Source: a virus. From it: 20,423 nucleotides of DNA. Shown here one piece after another: positions 7,081 to 17,394 of the stretch (the first letter of the stretch is position 1; each line of letters begins with the position of its first letter). Made by a program: the position numbers and the translations under genes. Location of the stretch: positions 1 through 20,423 of the IMG/VR virus record IMGVR_UViG_3300047548_002258. One strand, given 5' to 3'. The notes below the pieces were generated by a model. It was not told where the DNA came from, made no database searches, and worked only from the letters and a program-made list of their open reading frames with translations.

Positions 7081-7542
7081 ATGACCGTTCGGACTTCCGC
7101 CGGCACCACTCTGAAGGTGTCGGCCTCTACCCCTGCGACCTTCGATGCCACCGGTTACAACGCGCTTGTCATGACGGTGGTCGGCGAAGTGTCTGACCTT
7201 GGCGAGTTTGGGCGCGAGTTCAATCTCGTGACATTCAACCCTGTTGGCAGCCGCGGCGTCGTCAAGAAGAAGGGCAGCTTCAACCAGGGTACGATGCAGA
7301 TCCAGCTCGGCCTCGATACTGACGATGCGGGCCAGATTCTGCTGAAGTCCGCTTCGACTTCGGATGCTGACCACAGCTTCCTCGTCACCACGCAGAATGG
7401 CGACAAATACTACTTCCAGGCACAGGTCATGAGCTTCAAGGTCAACGTGGGGTCGGTTGATCAGATCACGACCGCCACGGTCGCTCTCGAACTAACCACC
7501 AATTCCGCCGGTGTAGGCATCGTCGAGGTGCTGGCGCCGTAA
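7081..7542 (+). CDS. Major tail (tail tube) protein
   Basis: A 153-residue beta-rich protein in the position of the tail tube, following the terminator gene with its own ribosome-binding site (AAGGAC). The pattern is typical of siphovirus tube proteins: an opening TSAGTTLKVSASTPATFDATGY, the central GEVSDLGEFGREFNLVTFNPVGSRG, the KGSFNQGTMQIQLGLDTDDAGQ segment and a late FQAQVMSFKVNVGSVDQIT strand pair. Copies stack as hexamers around the tape measure. It is the last gene before the atypical island; normally a tail assembly chaperone would follow at once. Confidence 0.9.
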   Translation: MTVRTSAGTTLKVSASTPATFDATGYNALVMTVVGEVSDLGEFGREFNLVTFNPVGSRGVVKKKGSFNQGTMQIQLGLDTDDAGQILLKSASTSDADHSFLVTTQNGDKYYFQAQVMSFKVNVGSVDQITTATVALELTTNSAGVGIVEVLAP

Positions 7543-7642
7543 ACCGCAACATTGATTGCCCGCAGGCGCTGTAACGCTTTGCAAAGGTTGCGTCAGGAGA
7601 TTTAGCAGTTAGACCTTTTGTATCAATCAGGGGGTGGGGAAT

Positions 7643-8326
7643 ATGCTGGCGAAACTTGAGCAAGTTTATCTTGCAGTACTGCGGGTGGTTATTCTCGTTG
7701 CAGCAACTGTTGCTTTGGTTGTGGCCGCATTCGGGACGATTGGCGCCATCCCGCCCTTGATCAAATGGGCAGGCCTCACTGATGTCACTGCTCCCACTGG
7801 GGGAACTCTCGGCGAATTCATCAGGGAAATGAAAGCCTCTGGGACGAGTGATGACCTTCCCAACACGACTACTACCACAACGGTCATCAACATCCTGCCG
7901 AATATCAATGCGGCTGCCTTGAACTTAAAGAAGTATCTCGGTGACCGTACTCGTCTGACTGCTGATCAGCTCGCGGAGGGCCTGCAGGGGTTTGCAGACG
8001 AATATCCGATGCATTCAGATGCCTACGCAAAGAGCGTCAGGGCTTTGACTGAAGAGCTGCTAGTCAGCAAAGGCAAGCCGCTAAGTGAAGGCAGAATTTC
8101 AGAGCTTTTGGCCTGGCACAACAAGCGCTTCGAGGCGAACATTGAGCTGCGTGCGGCGGAGCAAGCTGAGGGGAACTCCAAGTTTTTGATGACGATTGGG
8201 GTAGCGGCCATTTCGTTTTTGGCTTTCGTCCTGATTATCTTCATTTTCCTCTTCGTGAAAATCGAGCGGAATCTCCGACCAGCTCGAACCGATCCGGTTT
8301 CCTCGGAACCAAGCGAAAATTCTTGA
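7643..8326 (+). CDS. Two-TM envelope protein of unknown function (cargo/moron gene)
   Basis: A 227-residue product from the ATG at 7643; an upstream in-frame GTG at 7634 would add three residues. The G-rich stretch at 7629-7640 serves as ribosome-binding site and favours the ATG. Residues about 10-38 form a first membrane segment (VVILVAATVALVVAAFGTIG) and about 187-210 a second (IGVAAISFLAFVLIIFIFLFV), followed by a basic tail. The loop between them is probably periplasmic and includes six consecutive Thr followed by VINILPN, and a helical region. I recognise no family. Two hand-counted 60-base stretches (7861-7920, 8161-8220) are 48-50% G+C against 63% at 6541-6600, which marks it as foreign to the late operon. 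It is probably co-transcribed with the lipoprotein gene next door. Superinfection exclusion is possible but unproven. Confidence 0.7.
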   Translation: MLAKLEQVYLAVLRVVILVAATVALVVAAFGTIGAIPPLIKWAGLTDVTAPTGGTLGEFIREMKASGTSDDLPNTTTTTTVINILPNINAAALNLKKYLGDRTRLTADQLAEGLQGFADEYPMHSDAYAKSVRALTEELLVSKGKPLSEGRISELLAWHNKRFEANIELRAAEQAEGNSKFLMTIGVAAISFLAFVLIIFIFLFVKIERNLRPARTDPVSSEPSENS

Positions 8327-8336
8327 GGAACGCGTG

Positions 8337-8912
8337 ATGATCCGCCCAGTAGCCGGCATCTCTGCATTGCTCCTGTTGGCTGGGTGCGGCAGTTCAGGTC
8401 ATGGGCCGGTCGACACGACACTTCCCGACGAGGCATCGAGTGCTGTTGCGACAGAGGTCGCAAGCGAGAGTGCATCTGCGATTGAACAAGAAGCCACATC
8501 GACCGATTTGGCCGGGCAGAAGCCGATAAGGTCGCGGGTGCCAGCGCGCGTTAAACCTTACGAACAGAGCGAGGAAACTGCGAGCGAGCAAAGGAGTTAT
8601 AGCTCCTCAAACCAAGTTTCTAATGCCACTCCGCTAGGAAACCCCGGCAACTGGGTAACTTCAAATGATTATCCAACTAGGGCGCTTCGCGAAGACCGAG
8701 GGGGCACAAGTCGGTTTCGATTATCGATTGGGCCAGATGGACGTGTGGCTGACTGCAACATTACGCAATCGAGTGGTTCTGCCGATCTTGATGAAGCTAC
8801 ATGCGCAAACGTTACAAGGAGAGCCAGGTTCAGGCCTGCGACTGACGCTGCAGGAACGCCTGTGATTGGCTATTATTCCAGCTCGGTTCATTGGTCGATC
8901 CCTGGATACTAG
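8337..8912 (+). CDS. Lipoprotein with TonB C-terminal-like domain (cargo/moron gene)
   Basis: The ATG at 8337 is better placed after GAGGA (8325-8329) than the GTG at 8334. The 191-residue product starts with a lipoprotein signal peptide, lipobox LAGC with Cys17; +2 Gly argues for the outer membrane. Residues about 20-100 are a Ser/Glu/Ala-rich linker. The C-terminal 85 residues match the TonB_C pattern: NDYPTRALRED, RFRLSIGPDGRVADCNITQSSGSADLDEA and ARFRPATDAAGTPVIGYY. Normal TonB is anchored by an N-terminal TM helix and has a Pro-rich span; both are missing, so it cannot transduce energy from ExbBD in the usual way. Two Cys in the domain could form a disulfide. It may bind TonB-dependent receptors or act structurally; both are inference. 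Confidence 0.8.
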   Translation: MIRPVAGISALLLLAGCGSSGHGPVDTTLPDEASSAVATEVASESASAIEQEATSTDLAGQKPIRSRVPARVKPYEQSEETASEQRSYSSSNQVSNATPLGNPGNWVTSNDYPTRALREDRGGTSRFRLSIGPDGRVADCNITQSSGSADLDEATCANVTRRARFRPATDAAGTPVIGYYSSSVHWSIPGY

Positions 8913-8979: not shown

Positions 8980-9065
8980 TGGTGCGGATGGCGGGACTCG
9001 AACCCGCACGAGGATACCCTCACAAGATTTTAAGTCTCGGGCGTCTACCATTCCGCCACATCCGC
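8980..9065 (-). tRNA. tRNA-Leu, anticodon UAA, encoded CCA
   Basis: Read on the minus strand, a complete class II tRNA is visible. The acceptor stem GCGGATG (5' end 9065) pairs perfectly with CATCCGC, followed by discriminator A and encoded CCA (8980-8982). The anticodon stem CGAGA/TCTTG encloses loop CTTAAAA, giving anticodon UAA (complement of 9030-9032). The long variable arm has a GAGG/CCTC stem, and the T arm is GCGGG-TTCGAGT-CCCGC. It reads UUA and UUG codons, which look rare in the surrounding late genes. It is antisense to the phage operon and 15 bases from a second tRNA-Leu. Confidence 0.95.
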
Positions 9066-9080
9066 TTTGCCACATCAGCA

Positions 9081-9165
9081 TGGTGCGGACGAAGGGACTC
9101 GAACCCCCACACCTTGCGGCGCCAGAACCTAAATCTGGTGCGTCTACCAATTTCGCCACGCCCGC
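9081..9165 (-). tRNA. tRNA-Leu, anticodon UAG, encoded CCA
   Basis: On the minus strand the acceptor stem GCGGGCG (5' end 9165) pairs with CGTCCGC with one G-T pair, then discriminator A and encoded CCA (9081-9083). The anticodon stem CCAGA/TCTGG encloses loop TTTAGGT, giving anticodon UAG (complement of 9129-9131), which reads CUN codons. It has a class II variable arm and a GGGGG/TCCC-type T stem with TTCGAGT loop. The body looks like an ordinary alphaproteobacterial tRNA-Leu, with no obvious decay. It would be transcribed first, before the UAA gene. I saw no clear promoter at 9166-9230 on the minus strand. Confidence 0.95.
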
Positions 9166-9216
9166 ACTGGCGCTGGCCTTTCCCAGATCATGCCCAAATT
9201 GCCAAGGAGAACACGC

Positions 9217-9633
9217 ATGTTCGATATCACCACGCTTGCCGCGGCCGACACCTCGACCCTCGAGCTCGTCGGCGGCGACGATGCCCCGCTCTTTGATGAA
9301 AAGGGGGCGCGCCTCTCGGTTACGGTCTATGGTCCGGGCTCGAAGGTCTACCAGCGGGCGCAGGCTCGCCAGCAGAACCAGCTGATGGACAAGATCAAGA
9401 AGCGCGGGAAGATGGACCAGTCGGCCGAAGAAAAGCTCGCTGAACAGGCGGATTTCCTTGCCGCCTGCACGGTCAGCTTCAACGGCTTTACCTATCCGCC
9501 TGCGGATGGCCTCGAAGGTCAGGAGCTCTTTCGCAAGGCCTATGCCGATCCCTCGATCGGGTTCATCGCGACGCAGGTTGCCGCCCATATTAACGACTGG
9601 GCAAATTTTACGAAGAGCTCAGGTTCGAGCTGA
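9217..9633 (+). CDS. Tail assembly chaperone, G-like (0-frame product)
   Basis: The 138-residue product starts at the ATG at 9217, 6 bases after a clear AAGGAGA; an in-frame ATG at 9190 lacks a ribosome-binding site. It has the look of siphovirus tail assembly chaperones: a beta-rich N-terminus with LELVGGDDAPLFDEKGARLSVTVYGPGSKVY, a basic helix, and a helix-rich end. It sits just upstream of the tape measure, where lambda G/T sits. Near its 3' end a heptamer A-AAT-TTT (9603-9609) in the correct phase should send a fraction of ribosomes into the -1 frame to make the G-T fusion. The 0-frame ends in TKSSGSS-stop. Confidence 0.88.
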   Translation: MFDITTLAAADTSTLELVGGDDAPLFDEKGARLSVTVYGPGSKVYQRAQARQQNQLMDKIKKRGKMDQSAEEKLAEQADFLAACTVSFNGFTYPPADGLEGQELFRKAYADPSIGFIATQVAAHINDWANFTKSSGSS

Positions 9634-16583: not shown

Positions 16584-17123
16584 ATGAACCCGCTACCGCC
16601 AGCCTACCGCTGGCTTGATGATCTGCAGCCGCTGCCCAGGATGGTGGCGGAAGCTCGTAAGCTCTTCGGAACGGTCGAGGCCAAAGGCGCCGCCGACAAT
16701 CCGGTGATCCTGGGCTGGGCCAAAGAGCTCGGCCTCGCCAAGGTCTACAACCACGACGAGATCCCCTGGTGCGGGCTCTTTGCCGGCATTGTTGCCAAGC
16801 GTGCCGGCAAGGCGCTGCCCAGCCAGCCGCTCTGGGCGCGCAGCTGGGTGAACTTCGGCAAGGATGGCAGCGCAAAGCCGCAGCTTGGCGATGTGCTCGT
16901 CTTCCGCCGCGGTGAGGTCTCCGGCCATGTCGGGCTCTACATCGGTGAGGACTACGGCGCCTTTCATGTGCTCGGCGGCAACCAGTCCGATGGCGTGACC
17001 ATCACCCGCATTGCCAGGGAGCGCTGCATCGCGGTCCGCCGCCCTGTCTACAAGGCAGCGCCTGGAACCGCGAAGCCGGTCGAACTGGCAGCGACCGGTG
17101 CGCTTTCAACGAACGAAGCCTGA
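16584..17123 (+). CDS. Endolysin, CHAP/NlpC-P60-like peptidase (TIGR02594 type)
   Basis: A 179-residue product from the ATG at 16584 after CAGGAG. The core matches the TIGR02594 group of phage cysteine peptidases: ILGWAKELGL, then PWCGLFAGIVAKRAG with Cys63 as likely nucleophile, LWARSWVNFG, QLGDVLVFRRGEVSGHVGLYIGED with His115 as likely base, and LGGNQSDGVTI for the third polar residue. It has no signal peptide and would need a holin to reach the cell wall. It is predicted to cut peptidoglycan peptides. The C-terminal 25 residues are a loose Ala/Pro-rich tail. An intrinsic terminator follows 40 bases after the stop. Confidence 0.88.
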   Translation: MNPLPPAYRWLDDLQPLPRMVAEARKLFGTVEAKGAADNPVILGWAKELGLAKVYNHDEIPWCGLFAGIVAKRAGKALPSQPLWARSWVNFGKDGSAKPQLGDVLVFRRGEVSGHVGLYIGEDYGAFHVLGGNQSDGVTITRIARERCIAVRRPVYKAAPGTAKPVELAATGALSTNEA

Positions 17124-17163
17124 CCCAACCATCCACTGCTTCACAAGCAGCTGGTTCATCCCG

Positions 17164-17185
17164 CCCGCCATTTGGCGGGTTTTTT
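17164..17185 (+). terminator. Intrinsic terminator after the endolysin gene
   Basis: CCCGCC (17164-17169) and GGCGGG (17174-17179) form a perfect 6-bp G+C stem with loop ATTT, directly followed by six T (17180-17185). It ends 4 bases before the ribosome-binding site of the next gene, leaving no room for a promoter between. It would cut late transcription unless antiterminated or leaky. Confidence 0.85.
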
Positions 17186-17199
17186 ATTGGAGAAGTGAC

Positions 17200-17394
17200 A
17201 TGGAAGACCTCAAACCCTGGTGGACTTCGAAGGCCATCTGGACCGGCGTTATCGGCAGCCTTTGGGGCGTTGCCGGCACGCTCGGCGTTCTACCCGCCGG
17301 GCTCGACCAGACTGACGTATTGACCGTGGTGCTGGCGCTGACCGGTATCGGCGGCGTCCTGTTCCGCAAGACGGCAACAGCCCGCATCGGCTGA
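17200..17394 (+). CDS. Small two-TM protein, holin candidate
   Basis: A 64-residue product with GGAGAAG at 17189-17195 before the ATG. Two membrane segments are visible, about residues 12-33 (AIWTGVIGSLWGVAGTLGVL) and 41-56 (VLTVVLALTGIGGVLF), followed by RKTATARIG. Small proteins starting KxWWTSK..W.G and ending in a basic 'AT.RIG'-type tail are frequent near endolysins in alphaproteobacterial phages and are usually annotated as holins. A holin would let the upstream endolysin reach the wall. The stop codon overlaps a small hairpin and an ATG (17394) that is unlikely to be used. Confidence 0.7.
   Translation: MEDLKPWWTSKAIWTGVIGSLWGVAGTLGVLPAGLDQTDVLTVVLALTGIGGVLFRKTATARIG

Follow-up and report, generated by a model that had tools for sequence, protein, structure and literature searches.

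The occurrence of a TonB C-terminal domain in a phage gene raises the question of what this part of a bacterial energy transducer could do in a virus. TonB-dependent receptors are known targets of phage-made proteins, such as Llp of phage T5, which blocks FhuA. The Cor proteins of phi80 and N15 are likewise phage-made blockers that inactivate the TonB-dependent receptor FhuA (PMC11436027), irreversible adsorption of phage T1 requires TonB (PMC11658791), and sphingomonads combine very many TonB-dependent receptors with few TonB complexes (PMC7142613). In the present study a viral record of 20.4 kb, called the window hereafter and comprising the whole stretch of DNA analysed, was investigated with regard to such a domain, encoded at 8337-8912. 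A first-pass annotation had read the gene as a lone lipid-anchored receptor blocker; the domain, the predicted lipid anchor and the absence of the energised span were borne out, but not the solitude of the lipoprotein, as the partner gene at 7634-8326 had been overlooked.

The window carries siphophage late genes (terminase, major capsid, tail terminator, major tail protein, tail-assembly chaperone and tape measure), and related phages are integrated in chromosomes of Sphingomonadaceae (Sphingobium, Sandarakinorhabdus, Novosphingobium and others). Both genes of the pair lie in a cargo hotspot bordered on the left by the major tail protein (7081..7542, +; PHROG 158, E=4.5e-16; 82-99% identical in related loci) and on the right by the tail assembly chaperone (9190..9633, +; PHROG 313, E=6.8e-4). 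With this chaperone 80 related viral loci were fetched, and 82 loci were surveyed at the site, 35 of which show a gap of less than 100 bp between the two border genes. Other cargo found there comprises an RES toxin with Xre/MbcA antitoxin, DUF4172-Fic, a MucR regulator, one or two tRNA-Leu genes and unknown genes. The lipoprotein is optional phage cargo, the module being absent from most sister phages, and GC content amounts to 53.5% in the pair versus 62.1% in the window. The cargo of the window consists of two pieces, namely the module pair and two antisense tRNA-Leu genes, TAA at 8980..9065 (-) and TAG at 9081..9165 (-), which were detected with ARAGORN and regarded as separate cargo that elsewhere is present without the module.

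The occupants of this site in related phages were also recorded. The tRNA-Leu pair, or one of it, stands alone in L002, L003, L009, L038 and L089 as well as in L008, L042, L044, L046 and L049. The RES toxin (PF08808) was found in L006, L007, L016, L029, L033, L035, L039, L045, L068 and L073, usually with the Xre/MbcA-type antitoxin (PF20432, PF09722) just 5' of it, and DUF4172-Fic occurs antisense (-) in L013, L018, L025, L026, L028, L032, L040 and L048 and, in another type, sense (+) in L043, L050, L070, L071, L074 and L078. The 2.7 kb site of L014 holds an RES/Xre pair and an antisense Fic gene with a second, partial major tail protein gene between them, possibly a trace of cargo exchange via recombination between the flanks. 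Two related prophages, L091 and L094, lie about 60 kb apart on one Sphingobium contig; the site of L091 contains a small unknown membrane-like gene and that of L094 is empty.

The reading frame of the lipoprotein (8337..8912, +) had been placed correctly in the first-pass annotation, with ATG at 8337, a stop codon at 8910-8912 and 191 amino acids in between. Its signal peptide is followed by the lipobox LLAGC at residues 13-17 (LAGC at 8376..8387, +), present in both other copies of the gene (L051 and L082). The reported Cys17 with Gly at +2 could be found again, as the end of L14-A-G-C17, and points to a lipid anchor; LPAM_1 gave a weak match (12.7 bits). The Gly at +2, from which probable outer-membrane sorting had been derived, is no firm guide to it, since in sister lipoproteins this position is taken by E, D, S and A as well as by G. 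A linker of about 80 residues, unstructured in the AlphaFold model, leads to the C-terminal domain (residues 97-189; 8625..8903, +). Pfam TonB_C (PF03544) covers residues 111-186 with E=1.2e-15 and 58 bits (cut-off 24.6), far above chance level, and NCBIfam TIGR01352 matches with E=7.4e-11. AlphaFold2, run on an alignment built from the collected related loci, predicted a TonB-like beta-beta-alpha-beta fold with a mean pLDDT of 80-98 per ten-residue block over residues 101-190. Ranks 1-17 of the Foldseek search against the PDB were all C-terminal domains of TonB or TonB homologues, among them the receptor complexes 6i97 (FoxA), 2gsk (BtuB) and 2grx (FhuA). The domain call of the first-pass annotation thus withstood profile and fold comparison, including the structure prediction proposed there, which returned the TonB_C fold.

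In host genomes the nearest relatives are canonical TonBs, which have both an N-terminal helix and a Pro-rich span. The domain in the window is 66-71% identical to the tips of these proteins, versus 32-49% to other TonB_C proteins, and the identity of up to 71% with canonical Sphingomonadaceae TonB (tonB-exbB-exbD; PF03544) includes the preceding NPGxW segment. In three of five cases (L132, L133, L136) canonical tonB is followed by exbB, and in L133 and L136 then by exbD; for L099 and L135 the same ORF filter gave no clear answer on this adjacency. When 39 conserved positions were defined among 13 canonical TonBs, the two phage copies kept 37/39 (window) and 38/39 of them and three divergent TonB-like proteins 26-30/39; the YP-x-R segment is kept in the phage domain as well. 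Judged by its residues, the phage domain is a near-copy of the TonB tip of the host family. A phylogenetic tree joins both phage tips in one group (96/96) without singling out a particular host TonB lineage as source.

What is missing is the remainder of TonB. The absence of a Pro-rich span, claimed before, could be quantified: proline makes up 7.6% of the linker in the window and 8-11% across the phage copies versus 31-38% in canonical sphingomonad TonBs. The aligned canonical TonBs do carry the coupling helix and its H, whereas the N-terminal transmembrane helix with SxxxH-type coupling residues is absent from the lipoprotein, which possesses the signal peptide and lipobox Cys17 instead. It further differs from canonical TonB in being phage-borne and in having another membrane partner; its gene is not adjacent to exbB or exbD and has the two-helix gene and the tRNAs as neighbours. 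A TonB without an SxxxH-type helix should not couple to ExbB/ExbD. With coupling helix and Pro-rich span both missing, the domain thus represents a receptor-binding tip that is not energisable in the known way. The protein was consequently not classified as a canonical TonB energy transducer, with which it shares the TonB_C domain and neither helix, Pro-rich span nor exbB/exbD adjacency.

Directly upstream lies the conserved partner (7634..8326, +; likely start ATG 7643), a two-helix membrane protein of about 227 amino acids with hydrophobic segments near residues 5-41 and 178-212 and, in the AlphaFold model, a helical bundle between them. This model is of moderate quality (pLDDT 71). No significant family was found in Pfam, PHROG, NCBIfam and PADLOC and no match in the PDB, neither by fold nor by sequence; a resemblance to NarQ sensor fragments is weak and non-significant. 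The protein sits probably in the inner membrane, with an orientation that may be deduced from its charge distribution. At the junction of the two genes (8324..8339, +) the stop codon TGA of the partner is contained in the likely ribosome binding site TGAGGA of the lipoprotein, and in L051 both frames overlap by 8 bases, which suggests translational coupling. In the search for a promoter of the pair's own, upstream matches were at chance level only, although the window and L051 have GGTTGCGT and some neighbouring bases in common ahead of the partner.

Beyond the window the same pair, with its TonB lipoprotein, occupies the same cargo site in two further contigs (L051/L083 and L082). L051 and L082 are near-identical, so that two TonB-bearing lineages only were found; compared with the window, the partner is 91% and the lipoprotein 60% identical. 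Between the window and L051 divergence is greater in the module than in its flanks: the partner shows a dN of 0.058, dS is saturated in the module and reaches 0.62-0.77 in the flanking genes. Hence the module is either older in the phage backbone or moves independently of it, and it is under purifying selection, strongly so in the partner.

A first genome scan with three partner sequences gave no match, nor did direct searches of phages and plasmids with the partner. Profile searches, by contrast, revealed homologues that share 32-55% of their residues with the protein of the window. Four of them come from sphingomonad genomes (L122, L123, L124, L126) and one from a phage of different structure (L130). 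No more than these four host genomes with clear homologues were found among several hundred sphingomonad genomes, an approximate measure of rarity as the sample covers part of the order, and samples of other Alphaproteobacteria and Pseudomonadota yielded no clear homologue and one partial, marginal match. Altogether seven distinct partner loci (two phage types and chromosomes) are known, each followed by one lipoprotein, or by two in L122 and L124. All partner-linked lipoproteins share a short motif, VDTTLPD in the window (residues 25-31; 8409..8429, +), the core of which, VDTT or VDTS, stands 7-10 residues after the lipobox Cys. VDT[TS] was present in 9/9 distinct partner-linked lipoproteins versus 0/109 other distinct lipobox-like ORFs from all collected loci, and when the viral collection was scanned at DNA level for VDTTLP[DE], those among the matches listed which had a lipobox context were all from known partner-bearing contigs.

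The lipoproteins of L122, L123, L124, L126 and L130 have no TonB domain. Across the modules the C-terminal part differs by locus: the window and L051 end in a TonB tip, L122 and L124 possess a Cys-rich domain, and L130 has none. The TonB domain is one of several exchangeable C-terminal domains in a two-gene module, and since sister modules do without it, the job shared by the modules must be broader than competition with TonB. The Cys-rich domain of the second lipoproteins of L122 and L124 recurs in L163:1093-1728 (G052), a lipoprotein without VDTT near integrase genes. At L285:676-1662 (-) (G233) a distant partner relative of 328 amino acids is encoded without a VDTT lipoprotein nearby; it has IDTTRP behind the first of its own helices, which might represent the lipoprotein motif incorporated into the membrane protein.

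The surroundings of the sister modules are uneven. In L122 (7095-13525, sphingomonad genome) the module is followed by PsyrT (E=3e-270) and PsyrA (8e-128) and preceded by an integrase, in L124 integrase genes are found on either side of it and a type I restriction enzyme is encoded close by, in L130 it stands antisense among phage structural genes, and the chromosomal modules of L123 and L126 are placed among ordinary genes without evident defence or mobile neighbours. An association with defence is therefore suggestive and not universal. The HMMs of PADLOC 2.0 matched neither the lipoprotein (P0001) nor its partner, nor any sister lipoprotein searched with them, and assignment of the pair to a known defence family was discarded. 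The optional cargo site and the two homologous modules beside defence genes fit an exclusion or defence role.

We give about an even chance to the reading that the pair at 7634-8912 is an accessory (moron) exclusion module, in which the TonB tip competes with TonB at receptors. The pair would be a moron of a temperate sphingomonad siphophage, composed of a two-helix membrane protein and a VDTT lipoprotein with an exchangeable C-terminal domain. The lipid-anchored tip would bind TonB-dependent receptors at their TonB boxes or plugs from the periplasmic side and, being non-energised, compete there with energised TonB; this would exclude phages, perhaps also bacteriocins, which need such receptors, while the membrane protein may hold or control the lipoprotein via the VDTT segment. 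Expression, sorting, receptor binding, exclusion phenotype and VDTT-partner contact of the pair are what we infer in this proposal. Strong inhibition of TonB should burden a host that scavenges iron and substrates, which counts against competition at receptors, and an explanation as a lone Llp-like plug is too simple and incomplete, as the lipoprotein belongs to a two-gene module with exchangeable domains; a sensor/effector mechanism may be involved.

Such a mechanism is the main rival, even if we consider it rather unlikely. Here the variable lipoprotein domain would serve as sensor or bait, in this phage docked on receptors in the manner of TonB, and the two-helix protein would be an inner-membrane effector, triggered when entry of phage DNA disturbs the receptor. 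A partner conserved at 91% between phages next to a lipoprotein at 60% with a C-terminal domain differing by locus is in agreement with this division of labour, as are the two modules with defence neighbours, the predicted topology, with a helical bundle enclosed by the two helices, and, for what a non-significant match is worth, the weak resemblance to NarQ sensor fragments. However, the partner possesses neither a known effector domain nor a significant PDB match, and only a short tail follows its second helix. Lysogenic conversion without phage exclusion appears less probable still: the pair would tune receptors or nutrient uptake, or act as an alternative TonB or envelope-stress factor aiding the lysogen. 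The chromosomal copies among ordinary genes (L123, L126), the distant relative in L285 without such a lipoprotein nearby and the resemblance of sister C-terminal domains to ordinary periplasmic domains point in this direction, but coupling to ExbB/ExbD is not expected where the SxxxH-type helix is absent, and the site is common to toxin-antitoxin and Fic cargo.

Two further explanations are very improbable. Adjacent genes for a membrane protein and a lipoprotein, overlapping by 8 bases in L051, recall a spanin-like lysis pair, in which an inner-membrane protein and an outer-membrane lipoprotein fuse the membranes at lysis. Yet endolysin-like and holin-like genes are found at 16584-17394, about 8 kb from the module, most sister phages lack it, chromosomal copies have no phage structural genes nearby, and at one site it is antisense to structural genes; moreover, the partner has two helices, and the lipoprotein is of considerable size and contains a folded TonB domain. 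A two-component spanin was ruled out by position outside the lysis cassette and by architecture. Equally doubtful is selfish or neutral captured DNA without function, as patchy distribution and low GC might indicate, in view of intact frames, the strong purifying selection on the partner and a TonB core kept at 37-38/39 positions in two lineages despite saturated synonymous divergence. The first-pass annotation had itself named a conserved housekeeping lipoprotein as a reading that would overturn its proposal. This was rejected: the search for full-length relatives revealed none that is a conserved gene of the hosts, almost all of the matches listed from 200 Sphingomonadaceae genomes start at the TonB domain, few being longer, and clear homologues of the partner were found in only four of the host genomes sampled.

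Returning to the exclusion module, its closest parallels are found among receptor blockers and TonB fragments. Llp and Cor resemble it in being small envelope proteins which a phage directs at a TonB-dependent receptor, a target that is presumptive here, and differ in that neither a TonB domain nor a conserved two-helix partner or swappable domains are known in them. Howard and Braun are said to have described in J Bacteriol in 2001 that engineered periplasmic TonB fragments inhibit FhuA and FecA transport in E. coli. By analogy, a non-energised periplasmic tip competing with TonB would be the mechanism proposed here; those fragments are laboratory constructs without lipid anchor or partner, whereas the phage protein is a natural gene. 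TonB_C proteins also occur on phage-labelled records of Acinetobacter, where they are annotated as transport protein TonB, with 30-36% identity over the domain only, and literature searches brought up no phage-borne TonB tip. New here are the host-TonB likeness of the domain, the loss of the coupling helix and the two-gene module with VDT[TS] lipoproteins.

More tentatively, and as a possibility rather than an expectation, the modules may form an undescribed mobile class of defence or exclusion systems of Sphingomonadales, in which a conserved two-helix protein is combined with VDTT lipoproteins whose swapped domains, in one case a TonB tip captured from the host, guard different entry routes through the envelope. 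The partner gene and the VDTT motif offer handles for further systems missed by current defence libraries. If the proposal holds true, the receptor-binding part of the host's TonB has been converted by a phage into a competitor on a lipid anchor, a natural counterpart of the dominant-negative TonB fragments made in laboratories. This would also hint at a modular, swappable platform guarding the envelope and would open a direct route to finding out for which sphingomonad phages TonB-dependent receptors are essential.
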